Origin: Actinomycetes bacterium
GTDB taxonomy: Bacteria; Actinomycetota; Acidimicrobiia; Acidimicrobiales; RAAP-2
Direction of reading: 5' to 3'
Length of the DNA stretch: 64,000 nucleotides
Assembly: GCA_021848365.1 (NCBI GenBank)
Contig: JAJZUS010000002.1
Span: 62,001 to 126,000 of the forward strand
The first letter of the stretch is position 1. The number at the start of each line of letters is the position of its first letter. A program made the position numbers and the translations under genes. The notes under the pieces are model-generated. The model worked only from the letters and a program-made list of their open reading frames with translations. It was not told the DNA's origin and ran no database searches. This document shows positions 25,311 to 43,967 of the stretch, one piece after another.

Positions 25311-27320
25311 CTACGCCGTGCGTAGGGAGACCGGGGTCGACAGCGGGAAGTGACACGCCGCGAAGTGATCGCCGCCGAACGACGTCATCTCCGGTGTCTC
25401 GTTGGCGCATACGTCCTGGGCGTACGGGCAGCGCGTCCGGAAACGGCAGCCCGACGGCGGGTTAATAGGTGACGGGAGCTCCCCGCGCACCTGCTGACCG
25501 CGCCGCGCCCGGGCGATTTCGGGAACGGGCACCGGCACCGCGTCCAGCAGACCTCGCGTGTAGGGGTGGACCGGCGACAAGAAGACGTCGTCGGCCCGGC
25601 CGATCTCGACGATCCGACCCAGGTACATGACCGCGATCGTGTCGGCCATGTAGTGGACCACCGACAAATCGTGACTGATGATCACGTAGCTCAACCCGTA
25701 GTCCTTCTGCAGGTCCTTCATCAGATTGAGGATCTGGGCCTGGATCGACACGTCGAGCGCCGAGACGGGCTCGTCCGCAATCACGAGTTTCGGGCGCAGG
25801 ATGATCGCACGTGCGAGTCCAATTCGCTGGCGTTGTCCGCCGGAGAATTCGTGCGGGTAGCGGTCGGCGGCCGACGGGTCCAGCCCGACGATCGAGAGCA
25901 TCTCGCTGACGCGCTCGCGACGCGACTGCCTGGTCCCCTCGTGGTGGATCTCCAGCGGCTCCGCCACGATGTCCCGAACCGTCATACGGGGATTCAGTGA
26001 AGAGTAGGGGTCCTGGAACATCATCTGACGATTGCGGTGCTGCTCCAGCGTCGGCTTGTACTTGCGGGCCGACACCACGTCACCCTGGAAGCGGATCGTT
26101 CCCGCGGTCGGCGTCTCCAGACCGACGAGCATTCGACCAATGGTCGTCTTGCCACAGCCGGACTCGCCCACCAGGCCGAACGTCTCGCCGTCGCGGATCA
26201 CGAAGCTCACGTCGGAGGTGGCGTTCACGGCGCCGACTTCGCGCCGCAGGAGACCCTTCTTCACGGGAAAGCGCTTGACCAAGTTCTCCACGGTGACGAG
26301 GGACTCCCCCGTCGTCTCGTTGCGCACATCGTCGCCCGTCTCAATGGGCTGCCCCGGGCCGTCGACCGGATGGAAGCACGCGAACCCGTGGTCGCCGTTC
26401 ACGACGAAGTCGGGCTCCTGCTGACGGCACTGGTCGGTCGCGAAAGCGCAGCGGGCGGCGAAGCGACATCCGACGATGGGACGGGAGAGGTCGGGGGGGA
26501 GTCCGGCGATGGAGCGCAGGCGCTGGTGAGCCGTCTGTCCCATCACCGGCATTGAGGCGAGGAGGGCCTGGGAATACGGGTGGCGCATGTCGGCGAACAG
26601 CTCGTCGACGGGAGCTTCCTCGGCCTTCTTCCCTCCGTACATCACGACGACGCGGTTCGCACGCCCCGCGATGACGCCCAGGTCGTGAGTAATGAGGAGC
26701 ACGCCCATGTTGAGCTCCGTGCGGAGCCGATCCAACAAGTCGAGGATCTGCGCCTGGATCGTGACGTCGAGGGCCGTCGTGGGCTCGTCGGCGATCAGCA
26801 ACTTGGGGTTGCAGACGAGACCCATCGCGATGATGACGCGCTGGCGCAGACCGCCGGAGAGCTCGAAGGGGTATTGGTCGAGTCGCTCGGCCGGCTGTGG
26901 CACCTCGACCATCTCGAGAACCTCGAGTGCGCGCTTGCGTGCCTCCCTCTCGCTCACGCCGAAGTGGATCCGCATCCCCTCCCCCACCTGACGTCCGATC
27001 TTGGTCGTCGGGTTGAGCGAGCTCATGGGGTCCTGGGGGATCAGGGCCACCGAGCGTCCACGCTGGTCCTGCATGTCACCGTCGCTGAGACTGGTGAGGT
27101 CAACCCCGTCGAGCACGACACGACCGTTCGCGACTCGCCCGTTCGAGGGCAGGAGTCGCATGACACCCAGTCCGGTCGTCGTCTTGCCGCAACCCGACTC
27201 GCCCACGAGACCGACGCACTCCCCGGCGTCCACCGTGAGCGAGAAGTCCTGGACCGCGTTGACGACGCGGTCGCGCATCTTGAACTCAATGCCGAGATTT
27301 GATATGTCGAGCAGAGGCAT
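25311..27320 (-). CDS. fused double ATPase of a peptide-type ABC importer (DppD–DppF)
   Basis: A 669-residue cytoplasmic ATPase made of two nucleotide-binding domains in tandem. Each half has a Walker A GLVGESGCGKTT, an ABC signature (ELSGGLRQRV in the first, EFSGGQRQRI in the second) and a Walker B (LLIADEPTTALD and LVIADEPVSALD). Each half ends with the Cys-rich oligopeptide-transporter C-terminal extension (CRFAARCAFATDQC and CRFRTRCPYAQDVC). Fusion of DppD and DppF is known in other importers such as GsiA and YejF. It is the first gene of the group; a TACACT box lies 9 nt before the ATG. Confidence 0.92.
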   Translation of the reverse strand: MPLLDISNLGIEFKMRDRVVNAVQDFSLTVDAGECVGLVGESGCGKTTTGLGVMRLLPSNGRVANGRVVLDGVDLTSLSDGDMQDQRGRSVALIPQDPMSSLNPTTKIGRQVGEGMRIHFGVSEREARKRALEVLEMVEVPQPAERLDQYPFELSGGLRQRVIIAMGLVCNPKLLIADEPTTALDVTIQAQILDLLDRLRTELNMGVLLITHDLGVIAGRANRVVVMYGGKKAEEAPVDELFADMRHPYSQALLASMPVMGQTAHQRLRSIAGLPPDLSRPIVGCRFAARCAFATDQCRQQEPDFVVNGDHGFACFHPVDGPGQPIETGDDVRNETTGESLVTVENLVKRFPVKKGLLRREVGAVNATSDVSFVIRDGETFGLVGESGCGKTTIGRMLVGLETPTAGTIRFQGDVVSARKYKPTLEQHRNRQMMFQDPYSSLNPRMTVRDIVAEPLEIHHEGTRQSRRERVSEMLSIVGLDPSAADRYPHEFSGGQRQRIGLARAIILRPKLVIADEPVSALDVSIQAQILNLMKDLQKDYGLSYVIISHDLSVVHYMADTIAVMYLGRIVEIGRADDVFLSPVHPYTRGLLDAVPVPVPEIARARRGQQVRGELPSPINPPSGCRFRTRCPYAQDVCANETPEMTSFGGDHFAACHFPLSTPVSLRTA

Positions 27321-27578: not shown

Positions 27579-28247
27579 TCACGACACCGGAAGGTTCCAT
27601 GAACGACGGTGTTCGATCGACGGACCAAGCGCACCCAGCGCGGCCCGGTGCTCCGCGGTGCCGTAGCCCACGTTTCGCGACCATCCGTAGCCGGGCAGAA
27701 CTCGATCGCGTTGGCGCATCACGTCATCTCGAGCAACCTTCGCGATGACCGACGCGGCGGCGATGACGGCGCTCACCCCGTCGCCACCCACGACCGCGAG
27801 TACGTCGTCGACGGGGCAGGGAATCCCTGAGCCAACCGGGGGGAGGCCCACATCCGCGGGCACGGACAGGAGGTTGAGCGGGCCATCGACCAGGATGAGG
27901 GGACGATCCTCGTGGCGCAAGGGAAGGTCGGCGAGTGCCCGATACGACGCCATCGCGAGCGCGACACGTAGTCCCATCTGATCAATCTCCGCGGCGCTCA
28001 CCCATCCCACCGCGATTCCGTGGGCCCACGCGGATAGCGGTGCGACGAGACCTTCTCGTCGGAGACGGGTCAATCGCTTGGAGTCGTCGAGGCCATCGGG
28101 GATGTCTCGGACGTCCCGCACGAGGACGGCACCGACGGCGAGCGGTCCCGCCCAGGCCCCCCGACCGACCTCGTCGACGCCCACCACCGCTCGACCTTGC
28201 GCCAGGGCGCCGAGTTCTGCGTCGAGACGCCCGACGGCTCCCCTCAC
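27579..28247 (-). CDS. rnhB: ribonuclease HII
   Basis: A 222-residue RNase HII, which removes ribonucleotides from DNA and RNA primers. The N-terminal VVGVDEVGRGAWAGPL holds the first two acidic catalytic residues (Asp, Glu); LILVDGPLN holds the third Asp; AKVARDDVM the fourth. The C-terminal NVGYGTAEHRAAL is also typical of the family. GTG 28247 lies 6 nt after a TAATCT box, in a divergent gap of only 34 bp shared with cofC. Confidence 0.93.
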   Translation of the reverse strand: MRGAVGRLDAELGALAQGRAVVGVDEVGRGAWAGPLAVGAVLVRDVRDIPDGLDDSKRLTRLRREGLVAPLSAWAHGIAVGWVSAAEIDQMGLRVALAMASYRALADLPLRHEDRPLILVDGPLNLLSVPADVGLPPVGSGIPCPVDDVLAVVGGDGVSAVIAAASVIAKVARDDVMRQRDRVLPGYGWSRNVGYGTAEHRAALGALGPSIEHRRSWNLPVS

Positions 28248-28253
28248 GCCGTC

Positions 28254-28259
28254 AGATTA
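28254..28259 (-). promoter_or_regulatory. -10 box TAATCT, leaderless start of rnhB
   Basis: TAATCT on the minus strand, 6 nt before GTG 28247. Confidence 0.55.
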
Positions 28260-28267
28260 TCGACCCC

Positions 28268-28273
28268 TAGCAT
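28268..28273 (+). promoter_or_regulatory. -10 box TAGCAT for cofC
   Basis: TAGCAT, 8 nt before the GTG at 28282. The rnhB -10 box lies 8 bp away on the other strand. Confidence 0.45.
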
Positions 28274-28281
28274 CGAGGACA

Positions 28282-28854
28282 GTGTCGCCCGACTCGCACG
28301 TAATGCTCGTGCCCCTCAAGTCCCCTCGTCGAGGGAAGCAGCGTCTGCGTCAGGCGGGTGTCCCGAACGTCACCGCTCTGGTGACGACGCTCGCTCGCAA
28401 CGTGATCCTCGCGTGTCACCCGCGCGTCGTGTACGTGGCGTGCGGTGACCCCGATGCCGAGAGAGTGGCGCGGGACGTGGGTGCCGTGCCGATGCGAGCG
28501 CACGGCATCGATCTCAGTTCCGACGTGGGCGAGGCCTATCGGCATCTGTCGGCGACGACGGAACGAATCACCGTCATCCCCGCCGACCTCGCACTCCCCG
28601 ACGGTCTCGGCCAGTGGAGCAACCCCGAGGGCATCGCCATCGTCCCGGATCGCCACGGCACGGGGACGAATCTCCTCTCTCTGCCGAGCGGCCTCGACTT
28701 CGTCTTTCGCTTCGGCCCCGACTCGGCTCAGCGACACATCGAGGAAGCCCAGCGCTTGGGCGTACCGATCACGGTCGTCTCCCCGTCCCCCTGGGCCTGG
28801 GACGTCGACGAGCCGGGCGACATCCCCGATTCAATGCAGAAAGCGGGGAGCTAA
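28282..28854 (+). CDS. cofC: 2-phospho-L-lactate/phosphoenolpyruvate guanylyltransferase (coenzyme F420 biosynthesis)
   Basis: A 190-residue nucleotidyltransferase of the CofC/FbiD family, which activates the phospho-acid that becomes the side chain of coenzyme F420. Signatures are [23 protein letters not shown], the [13 protein letters not shown] nucleotide loop, [15 protein letters not shown] and the closing [12 protein letters not shown] 28282 is preferred over ATG 28303 because of a -10 box 8 nt upstream and because family members keep a few residues before the first motif. No other F420 genes lie in the window. The stop codon sits in the loop of a 16-bp hairpin. Confidence 0.85.
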
Positions 28855-28870
28855 CTCCCCGCTTTCTGCA
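28835..28870. terminator. 16-bp perfect hairpin with the cofC stop codon in its loop
   Basis: 28835–28850 pairs perfectly with 28855–28870, and the loop CTAA contains the TAA stop of cofC. The last codons of cofC form the left arm. It can serve both cofC and the convergent histone-like gene. There is no T-tract. Confidence 0.75.
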
Positions 28871-28899
28871 CCGCCGTCTGCGGCGAGACTGCCGTGGAC

Positions 28900-29238
28900 C
28901 TACTTCTTGGCCGGAGCCTTCTTGGCCGGAGCCTTCTTGGCCGGGGCCTTCTTCGCCGGAGCCTTCTTGGCCGGAGCCTTCTTGGCCGGAGCCTTCTTGG
29001 CCGGGGCCTTCTTGGCCGGGGCCTTCTTGGCCGGAGCCTTCTTCACCGGAGCCTTCTTGGCGGCAACCTTCTTCGCCGGTGCCTTCTTCGCCGGAGCCTT
29101 CTTGGCCGGAGCCTTCTTGGCCGGAGCCTTCTTGGCGACAGCCTTCTTCGCCGGAGCCTTCTTGGCGGCGGCCTTCTTCGCCGGCGCCTTCTTGGCCGGA
29201 GCCTTCTTGGCCGGGGCCTTCTTGGCGGCAGTTGCCAC
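28900..29238 (-). CDS. lysine/alanine-rich histone-like repeat protein
   Basis: A 112-residue protein built almost entirely of the pentad AKKAP (about 20 copies, with a few A/V substitutions). Such tails bind DNA non-specifically in bacterial HupB C-termini and histone H1-like proteins, so nucleoid binding is likely. Here no globular HU domain is attached. GTG 29238 is chosen because an AAGGAGG ribosome binding site lies at ideal distance, whereas an in-frame ATG 13 codons earlier has none. It ends near the bidirectional hairpin at 28835–28870. Confidence 0.75.
28905..29215 (-). repeat. array of 15-bp coding repeats (AKKAP units)
   Basis: Tandem 15-bp units encode the AKKAP pentads, differing mostly at silent third positions (GCC/GCG, AAG constant). 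It is a coding microsatellite prone to copy-number change. Confidence 0.8.
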
Positions 29239-29495
29239 GTTCCCTCCTTGGGATATGTCAGTGAGTCGAGTCGTCATCGCGGATGACCACCTTGGTCATA
29301 CCGTGTCATCGATGCATGCTCGCTCGGCGTGAACTCGCTCACGTTCCGCCCAGCTTCCCGGCTGTGCGACGCGCGACCGCAGTGCACGGTCCGACCATGA
29401 AGAACCGACGTGGACAAAGACCGCCTATGGACTTCGGCACTTCGTTGACCTTCTTCATGATCGAACAATTCAAAGTTCACTAGGTACGCCGAGCA
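29239..29495. other. intergenic region between the histone-like and VirD4-like genes
   Basis: 257 bp between divergent genes, visibly less GC-rich toward 29460–29520 than the surroundings. It contains the inverted repeat ATGACCA–CCT–TGGTCAT at 29283–29299. Short open frames here have no codon or context support. I see no tRNA or clear attachment-site repeat. Confidence 0.45.
29283..29299. promoter_or_regulatory. 7-bp inverted repeat ATGACCA-N3-TGGTCAT
   Basis: A perfect 7+7 bp inverted repeat with a 3-bp centre, 45–61 bp upstream of the histone-like gene. It has the form of an operator; the regulator is unknown. Confidence 0.35.
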
Positions 29496-30860
29496 ATGTC
29501 AAGCATTTGCGCATTGCGCGACCGTTGGTCGTCGATGAGTGATGACGGAATCTTCCTCGGTGTGAACGACGGGGGTGATGTCGTGAGTGATCACGAACGC
29601 GGCGCACTCATCATCGGACCAACGCGCAGTGGCAAGACGACGTCGATCATCATTCCCAACTTGCTGCTCACATCGCGCGCCGTCGTCACCACGTCGACGA
29701 AGCCAGATGTCGTGGCGGTGACGAGCGGAATGCGACGAGACGTCACCACCTTGCTCTTTGATCCATCGGGCGAGACTCCCGCTCCCACGCACGTGCGGCG
29801 CGTCGGATACTCGCCCCTGATCAGCGCGGACTCGTGGGACCGCTCCGTCCTCATTACACGTTCACTGGTGGCCGCGAGTCGAATGCGTGTCGACGGCTCG
29901 GGAGATCACTGGACGGAACGGGCCGCTGCGCTCGTGGCCCCAGTACTGCACGCCGGTGCCCTCGCATCTCTCACCCTCACCGACGTGGTCAATCAGATCG
30001 ACGCACGCGTGAGCACCGAAGCGATCGACGTGCTGCGCCACCACTACGACGAGTCACATCCGGCAGTCGCGACCATCACCGGAGTGCTCGCCACCGAGGC
30101 TCGAGAGCTCTCGAGTATCTGGTCGACGGCGGCCGGCCTCTTCGCCGGACTGCGCACACTGGCTGCTCGTACCGCGGCCTCACTGCCATCGATCGACGTG
30201 CCAGCCCTGCTCGATGGTGGGCACCACCTGCACATCGTCGCGCCGCGCCGCCACCACGCCGTGTCGGCCCCCCTCGTCATTGGCCTCATCGATGAGGTAG
30301 TGCACGTCGCCTACCAGCGGCACGCGAGCGGGCCAGGCCTCTTGCTCGCTCTCGACGAGCTGGCGAACGTGGCCCCGCTCCCCGATCTCGCGTCCATCGT
30401 CTCGGAAGGTGGAGGGCAGGGCGTCCTCACGCTCGCCTGCCTGCAGGACCTGTCACAGGCCCGGTCGCGGTGGGGTGCCGAAGCCGGCTCGTTCCCGTCG
30501 CTCTTTCCCACCACCGTGGTCCTTCCGGGCATCGCGGACCGACACACCCTGGACCTCATCGCGTCACTCGGCGGACGCCACCTCGCCCCGACGAGTACGT
30601 TGCAGCACTCGCGGCGCCGCCGACGGGGCCACTCGACCGCCTGGGTCGAGCGCGACCGGCTCAGCACCGCGGACGTGGCGCACGGGCGACCCGGATACGC
30701 ACTCACCATCGGACCGTCGAAGCAGGCGACCTGGACCCGGCTCGCGCCCTTCTACCGCGACTCACGGTTCGCGCCCGAGCGAGAACGACCTGTTCCGCCC
30801 GACGTGCGCCCCACCACTCAGTCGCGAGGCCAGGATGGTCCGCTCTCGTCCCGTCACTGA
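29496..30860 (+). CDS. VirD4/TraG-like conjugative coupling ATPase, soluble short form
   Basis: A 454-residue ATPase of the type IV coupling protein family. Walker A is GPTRSGKT (residues 41–48), Walker B LLLALDELANV (Asp287–Glu288), and the motif region SEGGGQGVLTLACLQDLSQ fits the TraG/TraM-recognition group. Full-length coupling proteins (about 600 residues) begin with membrane helices and carry an all-alpha domain; here the membrane part is missing. No type IV channel genes lie nearby. ATG 29496 or ATG 29535 may be the real start. It converges with the relaxase gene, overlapping it by 99 bp. Confidence 0.78.
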   Translation: MSSICALRDRWSSMSDDGIFLGVNDGGDVVSDHERGALIIGPTRSGKTTSIIIPNLLLTSRAVVTTSTKPDVVAVTSGMRRDVTTLLFDPSGETPAPTHVRRVGYSPLISADSWDRSVLITRSLVAASRMRVDGSGDHWTERAAALVAPVLHAGALASLTLTDVVNQIDARVSTEAIDVLRHHYDESHPAVATITGVLATEARELSSIWSTAAGLFAGLRTLAARTAASLPSIDVPALLDGGHHLHIVAPRRHHAVSAPLVIGLIDEVVHVAYQRHASGPGLLLALDELANVAPLPDLASIVSEGGGQGVLTLACLQDLSQARSRWGAEAGSFPSLFPTTVVLPGIADRHTLDLIASLGGRHLAPTSTLQHSRRRRRGHSTAWVERDRLSTADVAHGRPGYALTIGPSKQATWTRLAPFYRDSRFAPERERPVPPDVRPTTQSRGQDGPLSSRH

Positions 30861-31787
30861 GAGCTCTTCGGCGAGGGGGTCGGTGAGCCGTCCCTCTAGG
30901 GTCACGTCCACCAGCGCTTCGACCTCCGGCGAACGTGCCCCGTGGGTCCACGCGTTGGCGACCGCCTCGACGACGTCTCGCCGAAAGAGCCGACCGGGGA
31001 CGACGACGCCCCGTTCCAGCGCGTGGTGATCGAGCCGAACCGGTCGTCGCGGTACGTCAACCCCGAGGACCTCCACTGCGGCCAGATCGCGTCGCCAACG
31101 ACTCCTCGCGCCATCGCGCGTCCAGGTGATCTTGCGCCTGCCGCGAGAGCGCTCGCCCGGCCAACAGGCGAAGGCTCCCGCGTCGAGGCCCTCGACGACT
31201 TCCGAACCAGCGTAGGGTCGTCGCACCGTCCAGGACGTCACGTCGTTGACGATGTGGCGCAGGTTCGTGCGGTAGAGCGCGTCGGCGGCCCGCAGGTGAT
31301 AGCGGAGGTGCCGCGCGCTCACGACCCCGTCCCGATCGGACAGGCGTGACCCGATGAGCACGTGGTCGTGCAGGTGTGGCTCGCCCGCACGGTTGATGCC
31401 GTGGGTGAACGAGGCGACGGGACCGATGGCCGCGCGAACGACGTGCTCCTCCCCCCACCGAGTCGAGCAGTGCACCGTCCCCCGTCGGGCGAGATACTCC
31501 ACCGCCACCGCCACGGCGGTCCGGTGCGCGGCCACGATCGCGGACGCGCCACCCTCGTCGAGGGCCATCAATGCCGACACGACCCGCGGGGCCGACATCA
31601 CGAGGTCGTAGCCGAGGACGCGCGACCGCGAGCTGCCCCTCAGGACCTCCTCGGCGGTTCGGACCTCTCCGCCGTCGGGCCGCACCCACCACTGGGCTCC
31701 CCCATCCCGCAGCCCGTCGATCTCGTTCGCCTCGTCCTCGATCAGGTAGCTGACGTCACTCGACGTGCGGGTCAGAACAGTGATCAC
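30762..31787 (-). CDS. MobF (TrwC/TraI-type) relaxase domain protein, no helicase
   Basis: A 341-residue protein matching the N-terminal relaxase domain of MobF enzymes, which nick and covalently hold DNA at a transfer origin. A candidate catalytic Tyr14 (SDVSYLI) is near the N-terminus; GYDLVMSAPRVVSALMAL fits the conserved second block; the metal-binding triad is complete in FTHG…LHDH (His129, His140, His142); and ADALYRTNLRHIV follows. The helicase half of MobF proteins is absent. GTG 31787 is chosen since the upstream frame overlaps pafBC. It lies 34 bp after pafBC on the same strand and overlaps the coupling-ATPase gene by 99 bp. Confidence 0.75.
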   Translation of the reverse strand: MITVLTRTSSDVSYLIEDEANEIDGLRDGGAQWWVRPDGGEVRTAEEVLRGSSRSRVLGYDLVMSAPRVVSALMALDEGGASAIVAAHRTAVAVAVEYLARRGTVHCSTRWGEEHVVRAAIGPVASFTHGINRAGEPHLHDHVLIGSRLSDRDGVVSARHLRYHLRAADALYRTNLRHIVNDVTSWTVRRPYAGSEVVEGLDAGAFACWPGERSRGRRKITWTRDGARSRWRRDLAAVEVLGVDVPRRPVRLDHHALERGVVVPGRLFRRDVVEAVANAWTHGARSPEVEALVDVTLEGRLTDPLAEELSVTGRERTILASRLSGGAHVGRNRSFSLGREP

Positions 31788-31821
31788 GCCCGGGGAATCC
31801 TCACCCCCGCCAACGGTCGCT

Positions 31822-33759
31822 TCAGAGGAGGTCACGCATCGCGCGCGCCAGGGCACGCCCCGCGTCCGCGAACTCGGGAGTGACGACGACGGCCCCCGGA
31901 CCCGCCTGGACCATCAGGTGATCGAGAAACGTCCGGTCCGTGACGCGGAACTGCACGGCCGGCCGTCCGTCCGAGGCCCAACTCCACGTCGCCCCGGGCA
32001 GGGGCTCGAAGAGCCAGCGCTGCTCCGGGCTCATCACCACGACGACGTCGTCACCCCCGTCGCCGACCCGAGTCAACCAGAGGGCGTCCGTGTCGTCTGG
32101 GCGAGAGTCGGTCGCCGCCGATCGCGCGAGCACTGCGCCGATTCGGTCCAGTCGGAACGTGAGCCACGCGTCACGCGTGGTGCAGAACGCGCGAACGTAC
32201 GCCATCCCGTTCAGCACGCGAATCTCCCGGGGCTCGATGACCCGCTCCTCGGGCTCGCCCGATCTCAGGGACGCGTAGGTGATCTTGAGGCGCTCGTTCC
32301 CGGCGATCGCGTCACGGACGACACTGGTGACCTCGTCGGACTCGGCGGTGTCGAGGCGCACTCGACCGTCGACGACCGCCTCGATCTTCGCGATCGCCGA
32401 CTCGATAGCCGGGTCGTCGTAGACGTGAGCCGCCTCACGAAGCGCGACGTTCAGCTCGAAGAGGTCCTGCCACCGCAGGGGGCGCAGCGTCACGGCACCG
32501 CGGGGGTCGAACGCCTCCGCCCGATAGAGCGAGTCGTCCGTCTCCTCGTTCTCCCAGTCGTCGCACTCCTTGACGATGTGGGCAGGAAAGCCGAAGCGGC
32601 CGCCCATGGGCTCGAACGTGGTGAGGCGATCCATGATGTGCCGTACGAGCTCGGGGCTCATCGAAAAGCGCGCGGACAACTCGCTGATGCGTAGCCCTTC
32701 GGGATTACGTTGGACGGCCCGCAAGAGGAGGAGCGCCTGGCCGAGACTCGTCACGGGAGAGGACGCGGCGGCGCGCGGCGGCGTCACGCCCGGTCGCGGC
32801 CCGCGATTGACCCCCTCCAGCCACCGTCGCACGTCGGCACGGAGCGACTTCGGACTCTCGACGCGAACACGAGTCCCGGCACTGAGAACGAAGCGCAGCG
32901 CCGCGCGCGGTCCATCGAATCGCAGACCGACCTCGACGACCCCGTCGCGCTTGCGCGCGACCACGGCTCCCGGGTGCTGACGAGCGATCAGTGATCCCAT
33001 CGCGGCGCTGGTCGTGATCGACACGTCGAGCGGTCGCGGGGCCTTCCCGTACTGGGGGCGCCACGCTAGGGCGAGCTCCCGCGTCGCCAGGTCGACCTCG
33101 TCGAACTCGCCTCCGACGTCCGGCATCGAAGTGATGCGGGAGAGCCGAAATCCCCGGATCTCGGTGGTCCCGGATGGTCGAGCCACCAGGTACGTGGCGC
33201 CGTCGGCGACGATCAGCGCCAGGGGATCCACGTCACGACGTCGGTCCGACGAGGAGAAGTAGCCGAAGCGCAGCGTGCGACCGCGCCGCAGGGCCCGCAC
33301 GATCGGGTTGAGGAACTGCGATGACTCGAGCCCCCCATCCGGCACGCGACCATCGCCGAAGAGACCAATCGCTCCACTCGGCCCGAACCCGTAGAGGGCG
33401 AGAGCCGTTCGAATGACCGCCTCCTCGTCGTCGGAGAGGTCGAGGTTGGTGGCACCGACCGCGTCGTCGTCGATCCAGTAACCGGTCGAGCCCCCGTCCA
33501 TCGCCACCGTCTCGATCTGGTAGCCGAGTTGGCGGATGCGCTTCTTGTCACGCTCGAACATCTGACGGACCGCCTCGTCGGACCCCTGGTACGCGCGCAC
33601 TTTGCGGGGTCGCTTGGGATCCACCGGGTACTCATCGATCGTGAGCTGGGAGATGATGTCGTCCTGGGTCAACGGGCACTGAGCGGACGCTTCCTGCAGC
33701 AACAGCGTGAGCGCGAGTTGACGCTCTCGACTCTCCTCGTGATCGTTGCGCACGGCCAT
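31822..33759 (-). CDS. pafBC: fused PafB–PafC WYL-domain DNA-damage regulator
   Basis: A 645-residue fusion of two WYL-type regulators. Each half has a winged helix near its start (residues ~10–95 and ~345–400), a WYL domain (~155–230 and ~495–560) and a C-terminal WCX-like part. In mycobacteria PafB and PafC are separate proteins forming an activator of the LexA-independent DNA-damage response, and the fused form has been described in other actinobacteria. The order of halves here matches PafB then PafC. ATG 33759 follows the moaC stop by one base. No proteasome or Pup genes are present, unlike the mycobacterial locus. Confidence 0.85.
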   Translation of the reverse strand: MAVRNDHEESRERQLALTLLLQEASAQCPLTQDDIISQLTIDEYPVDPKRPRKVRAYQGSDEAVRQMFERDKKRIRQLGYQIETVAMDGGSTGYWIDDDAVGATNLDLSDDEEAVIRTALALYGFGPSGAIGLFGDGRVPDGGLESSQFLNPIVRALRRGRTLRFGYFSSSDRRRDVDPLALIVADGATYLVARPSGTTEIRGFRLSRITSMPDVGGEFDEVDLATRELALAWRPQYGKAPRPLDVSITTSAAMGSLIARQHPGAVVARKRDGVVEVGLRFDGPRAALRFVLSAGTRVRVESPKSLRADVRRWLEGVNRGPRPGVTPPRAAASSPVTSLGQALLLLRAVQRNPEGLRISELSARFSMSPELVRHIMDRLTTFEPMGGRFGFPAHIVKECDDWENEETDDSLYRAEAFDPRGAVTLRPLRWQDLFELNVALREAAHVYDDPAIESAIAKIEAVVDGRVRLDTAESDEVTSVVRDAIAGNERLKITYASLRSGEPEERVIEPREIRVLNGMAYVRAFCTTRDAWLTFRLDRIGAVLARSAATDSRPDDTDALWLTRVGDGGDDVVVVMSPEQRWLFEPLPGATWSWASDGRPAVQFRVTDRTFLDHLMVQAGPGAVVVTPEFADAGRALARAMRDLL

Positions 33760-33760
33760 C

Positions 33761-34249
33761 TCAGGCGTCGCCGTCGCCACGGCGCCACGACCCCGAGCGC
33801 CCGCCAGACTTCTCCCAGAGAGCCACGCCCTCCACCGTCATCGTCCGGTCGATCGACTTGCACATGTCGTAGATGGTGAGCGCCGCCACCATCACCGCCG
33901 TGAGCGCTTCCATCTCGACCCCGGTGCGATCGATCGTGTCAACGCTGGCCTCGATTTCGATCGAGGTCTCGGCGATGGTGAAGTTCACGTACACGTTCCC
34001 GACGAGCACCGGGTGGGCCATCGGAATCAGAGCGGCAGCCTGCTTCGCGGCCTGGATCCCCGCCACGCGTGCCGTTGCGAGGACGTCGCCCTTGTTCACC
34101 TCGTTCGACGCGACCGCTGCCGTGGTCGCGGGCAGCATGGTCACGCGACACCGGGCCAGCGCGCGCCGTGCCGACACCTCGTTCGGGCCGATCTCTCGGG
34201 GAAATGGGCCATCCCCGGGCACGCGACGCAACTGGTGGAAATCCGTCAC
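33761..34249 (-). CDS. moaC: cyclic pyranopterin monophosphate synthase MoaC
   Basis: A 162-residue MoaC, which acts with MoaA in the first step of molybdenum cofactor synthesis. Diagnostic segments are NEVNKGDVLATARVAGI, LIPMAHPV and DRTGVEMEALTAV, followed by YDMCKSID and ALWEKSGGRSG. The usual Cys of the CHP motif is Ala here, but the neighbouring His is kept. GTG 34249 is 6 nt after a TAGCAT box. It is the first gene of an apparent moaC–pafBC–relaxase operon. No other moa gene is nearby. Confidence 0.9.
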   Translation of the reverse strand: MTDFHQLRRVPGDGPFPREIGPNEVSARRALARCRVTMLPATTAAVASNEVNKGDVLATARVAGIQAAKQAAALIPMAHPVLVGNVYVNFTIAETSIEIEASVDTIDRTGVEMEALTAVMVAALTIYDMCKSIDRTMTVEGVALWEKSGGRSGSWRRGDGDA

Positions 34250-43669: not shown

Positions 43670-43967
43670 TGAGTCAAACCCTACCGGTCGTCTTACGTAG
43701 TCTCGGGGGCTGCGGGCGTCTGACCTGGTCTTTGACCCCACACTCGCCTGCGGCAGGTTCCGCGCGCCCGACGAGCAGAACCAGTCTCTCCCGCCGCGCT
43801 TTCGCGCTCTCCCCCGTCTCCCGGATCACCCACCGTGAGTGACCCGAGGCAGGTCTTACGTCTAAACCGCGCCATGCTCAGCGTCCACAAGACGCCTTAC
43901 GTGGGTCGTTTCGCCCGCGGCTGGCATCGACTTTCAACCACAGAGCCGCCCGCAGCCCGGCGAAAGT
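43670..43967. other. 298-bp intergenic region upstream of secA
   Basis: No convincing gene. It contains the secA -10 box and several short perfect stems: GGTC–TTT–GACC (43727–43737), CCTG–CGG–CAGG in the 43740s–50s, GCGC–TTTC–GCGC near 43797–43808, and GCGTC–CACAA–GACGC (43881–43895). CTTACGT occurs three times (43692, 43855, 43896). A structured leader or small RNA is possible; I cannot name one. Confidence 0.4.
43678..43683 (-). promoter_or_regulatory. -10 box TAGGGT (CCGGTANNNT type) for secA
   Basis: TAGGGT on the minus strand preceded by CCGG, 8 nt before ATG 43669; supports this start. Confidence 0.5.

Follow-up and report, generated by a model that had tools for sequence, protein, structure and literature searches.

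We analyzed a window of 64,000 nucleotides from an Actinomycetes bacterium of the order Acidimicrobiales (GTDB lineage RAAP-2; assembly GCA_021848365.1, contig JAJZUS010000002.1, positions 62,001 to 126,000), which encodes a VirD4/TrwB-type coupling ATPase, or type IV coupling protein (T4CP), and a relaxase of the MobF type. Comparison with the sequences of relatives indicates that these are old, vertically inherited chromosomal genes that are intact and under purifying selection, and the pair has almost certainly been domesticated. On balance, we lean toward placing it in a vertically inherited, domesticated system of conjugation type for DNA exchange or processing, which would work like the archaeal Ced/Ted machines but with a relaxase. 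A preliminary description of the same DNA had hesitated between the remnant of an element and a domesticated DNA-processing pair. The latter is strongly supported by the occurrence of the pair in 60/60 genomes, its fixed neighbors, purifying selection, the lack of internal stops, and protein distances that track those of dxs. The former is not supported on the two counts examined, flanking direct repeats (none notable) and the distribution of the pair (not sporadic).

Both proteins are encoded in all 60 same-genus genomes searched, with best-row identities of 37-46% for the relaxase and 49-61% for the T4CP. The genes for T4CP, relaxase, and a PafBC-like regulator are contiguous in 20/20 of the longer genus stretches. 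The comparison of related genomes proposed in the preliminary description thus finds the pair and its neighbors kept across the genus and partly across families. Both genes lie where they had first been placed, and their convergent open reading frames (ORFs) share their 3' ends over 99 bp in the window (30762-30860) and over 37-204 bp in 35/35 loci from 33 genomes. These loci were selected from 78. Two of them (L012 and L049) are second loci of genomes already present and were left out of the counts on 34 rows given below. The alignments A6 and A7 are subsets of the available loci, with 32 and 35 rows.

The relaxase match is free of stops in all 78 loci (several genomes counted more than once). 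For the T4CP, 4 of the 78 loci have a stop, at residues 11, 435, 440, and 443 of a 454-aa reading, i.e., ahead of the likely start codon or within the variable C-terminal part. The T4CP match carries one marked stop in seven genus genomes (G002, G009, G012, G013, G045, G046, and G053); the stops in the loci examined, which do not include the T4CP of G045, all lie outside residues 12-434. The dN/dS ratio in the 14 closest pairs is 0.064-0.218 for the relaxase and 0.034-0.108 for the T4CP, and its medians at dS 0.2-1.5 are 0.33 (145 pairs; maximum, 0.66) and 0.18 (160 pairs; maximum, 0.36). The loss of the helicase half and of the membrane helices, which textbook MobF and VirD4 proteins possess, could still be taken as the mark of a decaying remnant without function. 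We regard the probability of this as negligible: it is refuted by the low dN/dS, the invariant active sites, the lack of any stop within the coding part in 78 loci, and the short form of the relaxase in 35/35 genus loci, with short frames in other families too.

The ATPase has a Walker A motif (GPTRSGKT) and a Walker B motif (LDE), whose lysine/threonine and Asp-Glu residues are invariant in 35/35 aligned T4CPs, together with the T4SS-DNA_transf and TraG-D_C domains. The scores of PF02534 and PF12696, like that of PF08751 in the relaxase, are all above the curated cut-offs (Table 1). Its AlphaFold model (pLDDT 89.4) matches Cag-beta and TrwB-deltaN70, with TM scores of 0.60-0.71 by query length. 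The N-terminal membrane anchor of VirD4-type proteins is missing, as the preliminary description had noted: when alignment rows are trimmed at the conserved start, the top 19-residue hydropathy among the 35 T4CPs is 1.75, in mid-protein. We therefore call the protein "T4CP-like." The open frame upstream of this start spans less than 40 residues in 51/78 genus loci (17 residues in the window), too little to accommodate an anchor. It runs on in 27/78 loci, and a hydrophobic stretch (≥1.6) is seen upstream in 11 loci; these stretches would be an antisense reading of an RNA leader and a histone-like gene (see below). The start itself had been set at the ATG at 29496. This position lies inside a motif that is conserved as DNA yet is read in differing frames among relatives, for which reason M14 at 29535, giving 441 aa instead of 454, is more likely to be the start.

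In the relaxase, the PF08751 match (cut-off, 25) covers aa 42-182. Tyr14, H129, H140, and H142 are invariant in 32/32 aligned relaxases, and D61 is invariant in 31/32. We take Tyr14 and the His triad to be equivalent to the catalytic residues of TrwC. The model of the protein (pLDDT 85.1) matches TrwC (1zm5; Z 21.8) over residues 1-241. The protein has both the TrwC relaxase domain and the N-terminal Tyr with a three-His site. The NCBIfam MobF model NF041492 gave 71.1 bits, below its curated cut-off of 100. There is no helicase match in the 341 aa of the protein, which is too short for a C-terminal helicase half; we therefore name it a MobF-type relaxase domain protein. Its relatives in the genus measure 330-383 aa from the aligned start (n = 35). 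Short MobF frames (~400-500 aa) are also found in other families: G105, G213, G302, G321, G339 (f45), G259 (f39), and G120 (f60). The helicase half of MobF may have been lost more than once.

Protein distances correlate with those of dxs for the T4CP (r 0.84), the relaxase (0.71), and PafBC (0.92; n = 18; 0/2000 permutations). Those of the ABC transporter do not follow dxs (r 0.14), and it is therefore a poor vertical marker. The named neighbors (rnhB, the cofC-like gene, pafBC, and moaC) are host genes by Pfam. On the T4CP side, rnhB is present in 19/20 genus stretches, the 20th contig stopping before it, and the cofC-like gene is matched in 19/20. On the side usually opposite the T4CP in the longer stretches are moaC, matched in 18/20, and dxs. 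This setting bears on the idea that the pair is a fixed mobilization module of an integrated element (integrative and mobilizable or integrative and conjugative element, ICE), still moving chromosomal DNA or other elements by means of a helper conjugation system. Parts of MobF and VirD4 type would suit such a module. So would the further copies of MobF (frames mostly ~1000-1300 aa; e.g., in G050, G039, G059, and G046) and of VirB4 in some genus members, copies that look like mobile elements. We nonetheless find this explanation improbable: the vertical signal, the fixed neighbors, and the lack of notable flanking direct repeats speak against it, and synteny across families largely refutes it. 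Viral contigs gave just three weak partial matches (67 pattern stretches), among plasmids, the ten best T4CP relatives listed share 30-35% identity, and 0/51 plasmid relatives of the relaxase reach 80% coverage. A phage or plasmid origin was likewise rejected, the viral matches being few and weak and the plasmid relatives distant.

Judging from gene order, the address of the pair is common, whole or in part, to other families. Outside the genus, 27 stretches representing further genera or families were matched with the window and relative proteins (E <= 1e-7). Thirteen have T4CP and MobF, three have T4CP and cofC without MobF, three have MobF and WYL without T4CP, and eight have T4CP alone. 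WYL-WYL genes adjoin MobF in 9/16 of the stretches with MobF. The order is moaC-paf-paf-mobF> <T4CP-cofC-rnhB in another genus of the same family (G100), paf-paf-mobF> <T4CP-cofC in G133 and G080 (f21), and T4CP> <mobF-paf-paf in G298 (f31). In G097 (f38), paf-paf-mobF-T4CP run in a single direction; G321 (f45) has paf-paf-mobF at one place and T4CP-cofC at another, and G147 (f43) has rnhB..cofC..T4CP.

The preliminary description had stressed that no channel genes are near the pair. This holds locally and fails for the genome as a whole, where a cluster resembling a type IV secretion system (T4SS) lies on another contig, of 1.21 Mb (G000:C1, L126:7393-11734). This contig carries the sole VirB4-type match of the genome, which also has a single PF08751 match and a single PF02534 match. 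Among parts of the Ced/Ted type, a VirB2-like DUF6112 protein and a VirB4-like ATPase are present, and a VirB6-like protein is assigned by position and hydrophobic segments only. In the relative G040, the pilin-like protein has a TrbC match of 20.6 bits, below its cut-off. VirB4 of the second-locus type occurs in 56/61 genus genomes, and most genus relatives have a second T4CP (~30% identical; PF02534 73 bits in G040) with an adjoining VirB4-type P-loop. We consider it probable that the pair and the second locus are functional partners. As a separate observation, genes of two-component systems lie beside the DUF6112/SCO6880/VirB4-type cluster in the genus loci inspected (L126; L127-L136).

The distribution across the order points the same way. 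We surveyed 298 genomes, scoring just the few best first-look candidates of each, with cut-offs of E <= 1e-95 for T4CP, E <= 1e-60 for VirB4, and E <= 1e-10 for MobF. The T4CP is found in 83 genomes from 19 families. A VirB4-type match accompanies it in 79/83 genomes, versus 29/215 genomes without T4CP, and a MobF relaxase does so in 82/83 versus 65/215. Among 396 genomes of the phylum, 11 T4CP matches reach E <= 1e-95, all within the order (next best, 8e-85). In a set of 39 genomes that each represent a different family outside the genus's own, T4CP matches of at least 180 bits occur in 10, with VirB4 at 395 bits or more in nine of these and at 213 bits in one; among the 29 without T4CP at 180 bits, 10 have weaker VirB4 matches. 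The T4CP relatives that are 49-83% identical (best 80 of 307) are mostly from metagenome-assembled genomes labeled Acidimicrobiaceae, Acidimicrobiales, Actinomycetes, or uncultured actinobacterium. Many of these 80 have isolate names with palsa, bog, or fen, a few are labeled Acidobacteria, and one is labeled Saccharibacteria.

A short box offers a further tie between the loci. The 11-nt sequence GCGACCGTTGG has 2 exact copies in the window, versus 0.09 expected (0/100 shuffles reach 2), and they precede the T4CP and the relaxase (Table 1). When the 76 nt around each start are scored, the box is found with at most one mismatch before the relaxase in 31/34 loci, the window included; ahead of the pilin, it is found with one mismatch in 5/5 genus loci examined. 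Shuffled stretches have it with at most two mismatches in 2.5% (relaxase), 0.5% (T4CP), and 1.7% (pilin) of cases. Its 9-mer core occurs once in the 20 kb that surround the second locus, 34 nt before the pilin start. The box may be an operator or, conceivably, the recognition site of the relaxase itself.

The neighbor of the relaxase gene suggests how the system could be controlled. The gap between pafBC and the relaxase start measures 34 bp in the window and 15-33 bp in 20/20 genus loci, an apparent operon. The regulator has two WYL stretches and one WCX, and its HTH matches are weak and below the cut-off; this is the paired HTH-WYL-WCX layout of PafBC, and the closest solved relative is PafBC 6sj9 (phmmer E 2.5e-18). 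The Pup-ligase-family genes of the genome are on another contig, and no WYL match was found in the 20 kb surrounding them. Conservation among the regions upstream of pafBC is not evident. A pattern for a damage promoter of the mycobacterial RecA-NDp type has 3 occurrences in the window with at most two mismatches, versus 1.58 expected. Mycobacterial PafBC, a regulator of the DNA-damage response, is activated by single-stranded DNA (ssDNA), according to PMC11804915.

The region upstream of the T4CP has another occupant. A search for an oriT-like nick site had been suggested for 29239-29495; none was found there, and the stretch holds a covarying RNA leader of the minus strand. RNAalifold gives -41.5 kcal/mol for the minus strand versus -11.3 kcal/mol for the plus strand, with many G-U pairs. 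Changes on both sides are seen in 20/35 pairs (0/500 shuffles reach the scores), and sliding the pairing partners lowers pairing from 94% to 35-45%. The leader alignment has 31 rows, with L033 (a duplicate of the window) and seven close relatives omitted; the comparison of upstream regions kept 39/79 rows. A covariance model (R1) finds the leader in 59/61 genus genomes and in 0/39 genomes of other families, and Rfam has no match to it up to E 5. A K/A/P-rich ORF starts directly behind it in 28/31 loci by automatic choice (one contig is too short and two gave another frame), and the RNA is apparently the 5' leader of the lysine/alanine/proline-repeat histone-like gene. The sigma-70 scan gave no promoter in 28850-31900; an invariant TTGACA on the minus strand at 29497-29502 comes from the alignment and not from that scan. 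Since the leader is on the minus strand, the conserved stretch upstream of the T4CP weighs against a simple oriT hairpin, a reading we rejected because the conservation is largely that of a minus-strand RNA with a promoter-like end. A nick site may still lie in or near the stretch.

Table 1. Features of the pair locus (coordinates in the window) and of the second, T4SS-like locus.
Feature	Position	Strand	Basis or remark
rnhB, fixed flank on the T4CP side	27579..28247	-	PF01351 98.5 bits
cofC-like ORF with putative start, fixed flank on the T4CP side	28078..28854	+	PF01983 21.5 bits, just below cut-off 22
K/A/P-repeat histone-like gene, 112 aa, GTG start behind Shine-Dalgarno-like sequence	28900..29238	-	PF07382 55.9 bits for longer ORF to 29277
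Structured RNA leader (core 29327-29468), separating the histone-like gene from T4CP	29283..29468	-	Covariation
Box GCGACCGTTGG just ahead of T4CP start	29518..29528	+	Exact copy
VirD4/TrwB-type coupling ATPase (T4CP) without membrane anchor, 441 aa (probable start)	29535..30860	+	PF02534 67.5 bits, PF12696 51.8 bits
Helicase-less MobF relaxase, 341 aa, GTG start 31787	30762..31787	-	PF08751 79.3 bits
Box GCGACCGTTGG between pafBC and relaxase start	31810..31820	-	Exact copy
Fused PafBC-like regulator, two WYL domains and WCX	31822..33780	-	WYL 110.6 bits; directly upstream of relaxase gene, same strand
moaC, flank on the pafBC side	33761..34249	-	PF01967 161 bits
Pilin-like, VirB2-like protein, 94 aa	Second locus, G000		PF19607 DUF6112 30.9 bits, cut-off 25
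VirB6-like hydrophobic membrane protein	Second locus		Assigned by position and hydrophobic segments
SCO6880-family-like protein	Second locus		43.9 of 60 bits in G000
VirB4-like ATPase	Second locus		AAA_10 31.7 bits, cut-off 27.5
ROK kinase	Second locus, G000		

Two other features of the window may be mentioned. The ATPase of a peptide-type ABC transporter, in which two ABC domains are fused (25311-27320, minus strand), lies beside further transporter-like ORFs, and a raiA RNA (RF03072) is found at 43711-43954 on the minus strand (145.9 bits versus a gathering score of 101.3).

How could these parts work together? In the mechanism that we propose, the pair would be the DNA-processing half of an old conjugation-derived system of the Acidimicrobiales. 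The relaxase would nick chromosomal DNA and stay on the 5' end through Tyr14, with a host helicase substituting for its lost helicase half. The anchor-less T4CP would then hand the strand to a channel of VirB6-, VirB4-, and VirB2-like proteins, and chromosomal DNA could pass between sister cells, as in archaeal Ced/Ted. The position of the relaxase gene after pafBC would couple nicking to ssDNA and to DNA damage. It is thinkable, with chances that we put a little short of even, that the system transfers the cell's own DNA between cells. The full scheme, a bacterial counterpart of Ced/Ted in the form of a split, vertical chromosomal conjugation system in Acidimicrobiales, in which damage acts through PafBC to promote DNA exchange among kin for repair, is one that we propose tentatively and with less assurance. 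A machine for DNA uptake or DNA release, instead of exchange between sister cells, seems highly improbable: relaxases are donor-side enzymes, and DNA importers are not known to need one. What such a machine has in its favor is that the Ced system of Sulfolobales is described as an importer in PMC9905601.

Nicking, strand delivery, transfer, and damage control are all inferred, and several results weigh against a conjugation-like system and should be kept in mind. At the second locus, no family of Pfam or NCBIfam matches the VirB6-like protein or its G040 relative, the SCO6880-like match is subthreshold in the window's genome (G000) and absent in G040, and the second T4CP is absent in G000 and G055. 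The VirB4 match is missing in 5/61 genus genomes that kept the pair (G001, G004, G026, G027, and G042; completeness 85-97%). In other families, 8/27 stretches have T4CP without MobF, cofC, or WYL matches. The co-occurrence in the order tallies species and not independent events, and VirB4 matches at E <= 1e-60 can include mobile elements. No oriT was found in 29239-29495, and the mycobacterial RecA-NDp-type pattern has no occurrence at the pair locus and 0 in 20 kb of the second locus. The box is looser before the T4CP (at most two mismatches in 15/34 loci and at most three in 26/34) and does not precede the pilin in 4/4 other families (4-5 mismatches). With one mismatch allowed, it occurs 5 times in the window versus 3.84 expected, and its 9-mer core occurs twice versus 1.32 expected, neither above chance; nor is a single 9-mer unusual for the second locus (0.26 expected; 44/200 shuffles have one). 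Hence, the case for the box rests on its position and conservation.

Some of these results would be expected if the domesticated pair had a purely intracellular job, such as the nicking or removal of ssDNA that is stalled, damaged, or foreign, controlled by PafBC and uncoupled from any channel. A T4CP without anchor and a relaxase without helicase, the operon-like link to PafBC, the retention of the pair without a VirB4 match in those five genomes, and the lack of an oriT all fit such a job. It agrees poorly with the co-occurrence of T4CP and VirB4 (79/83 versus 29/215), with a box common to the pilin gene in 5/5 genus loci, and with a T4CP that retains a TrwB-type fold and the TraG-D_C region. 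We hold the intracellular job to be possible but rather unlikely. The preliminary description had considered a use other than standard conjugation; a conjugation-like role on the chromosome has at least the same likelihood as a purely intracellular one, because the channel is encoded elsewhere in the genome and co-occurs with the T4CP across the order.

If the proposed conjugation-type system is real, it would be a bacterial case of domesticated conjugation with the relaxase included, and it would come with a ready hypothesis of regulation by PafBC and ssDNA. The basis of this bacterial case is a chromosomal pair of relaxase and T4CP that is subject to purifying selection, with the T4CP present in 19 families of one order and nearly always together with a VirB4-type ATPase. 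Recombination and repair in little-cultured actinobacteria would become testable, and caution would be in order before labeling such genes as plasmid or ICE debris. We found no description of such a system in the literature searched, which misses most subscription papers and bioRxiv preprints. Bacterial conjugation systems are described as proprietary to mobile elements, and the domesticated archaeal machines as lacking a relaxase (PMC9905601). Patescibacteria have a chromosomal T4SS, mostly without relaxase, according to PMC12102498. A survey that looked in Actinobacteria for elements combining integrase, T4CP, VirB4, and MobF reports that the Acidimicrobidae lack one ICE class, the AICEs (PMC3218068).

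The comparison with known systems can be made part by part. TrwC/TraI relaxases of the MOBF family (R388, F, pKM101) share with the relaxase their fold (Z 19-22, best rows), the N-terminal Tyr, and the three-His site; it differs in having no helicase half, in having one conserved N-terminal Tyr position, and in being chromosomal. TrwB, VirD4, and Cag-beta resemble the T4CP in Walker motifs, TraG-D_C domain, and fold, whereas the T4CP has no anchor from the conserved start in the 35 aligned proteins and no upstream room for one in 51/78 loci. The PafBC of Mycobacterium and Arthrobacter is similar in its two WYL domains, in its fused form, and in providing the best solved relative (6sj9); here, the regulator sits beside a relaxase gene, with no WYL match in the 20 kb surrounding the Pup-ligase-family genes. 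Two small actinobacterial plasmids, Rhodococcus pDK5 and Mycobacterium pJCM_13573_2, encode some of the best plasmid-borne relatives of the T4CP or relaxase (~32% identity each), and their records do not annotate T4CP and MobF together. The closest parallel for the whole is Ced/Ted of Sulfolobales and Thermoproteales. According to PMC9905601, these are domesticated chromosomal machines derived from a conjugation T4SS, with parts of the VirB2, VirB6, and VirB4 types; Ced is induced by damage, and Ted parts are sometimes at distal loci. We suggest that the system could work like Ced/Ted, a likeness drawn from the types of its parts, and do not claim membership. The main difference is that Ced/Ted have no recognizable relaxase, while the system described here has a MobF relaxase and a VirD4-type ATPase, with the relaxase tied to PafBC.

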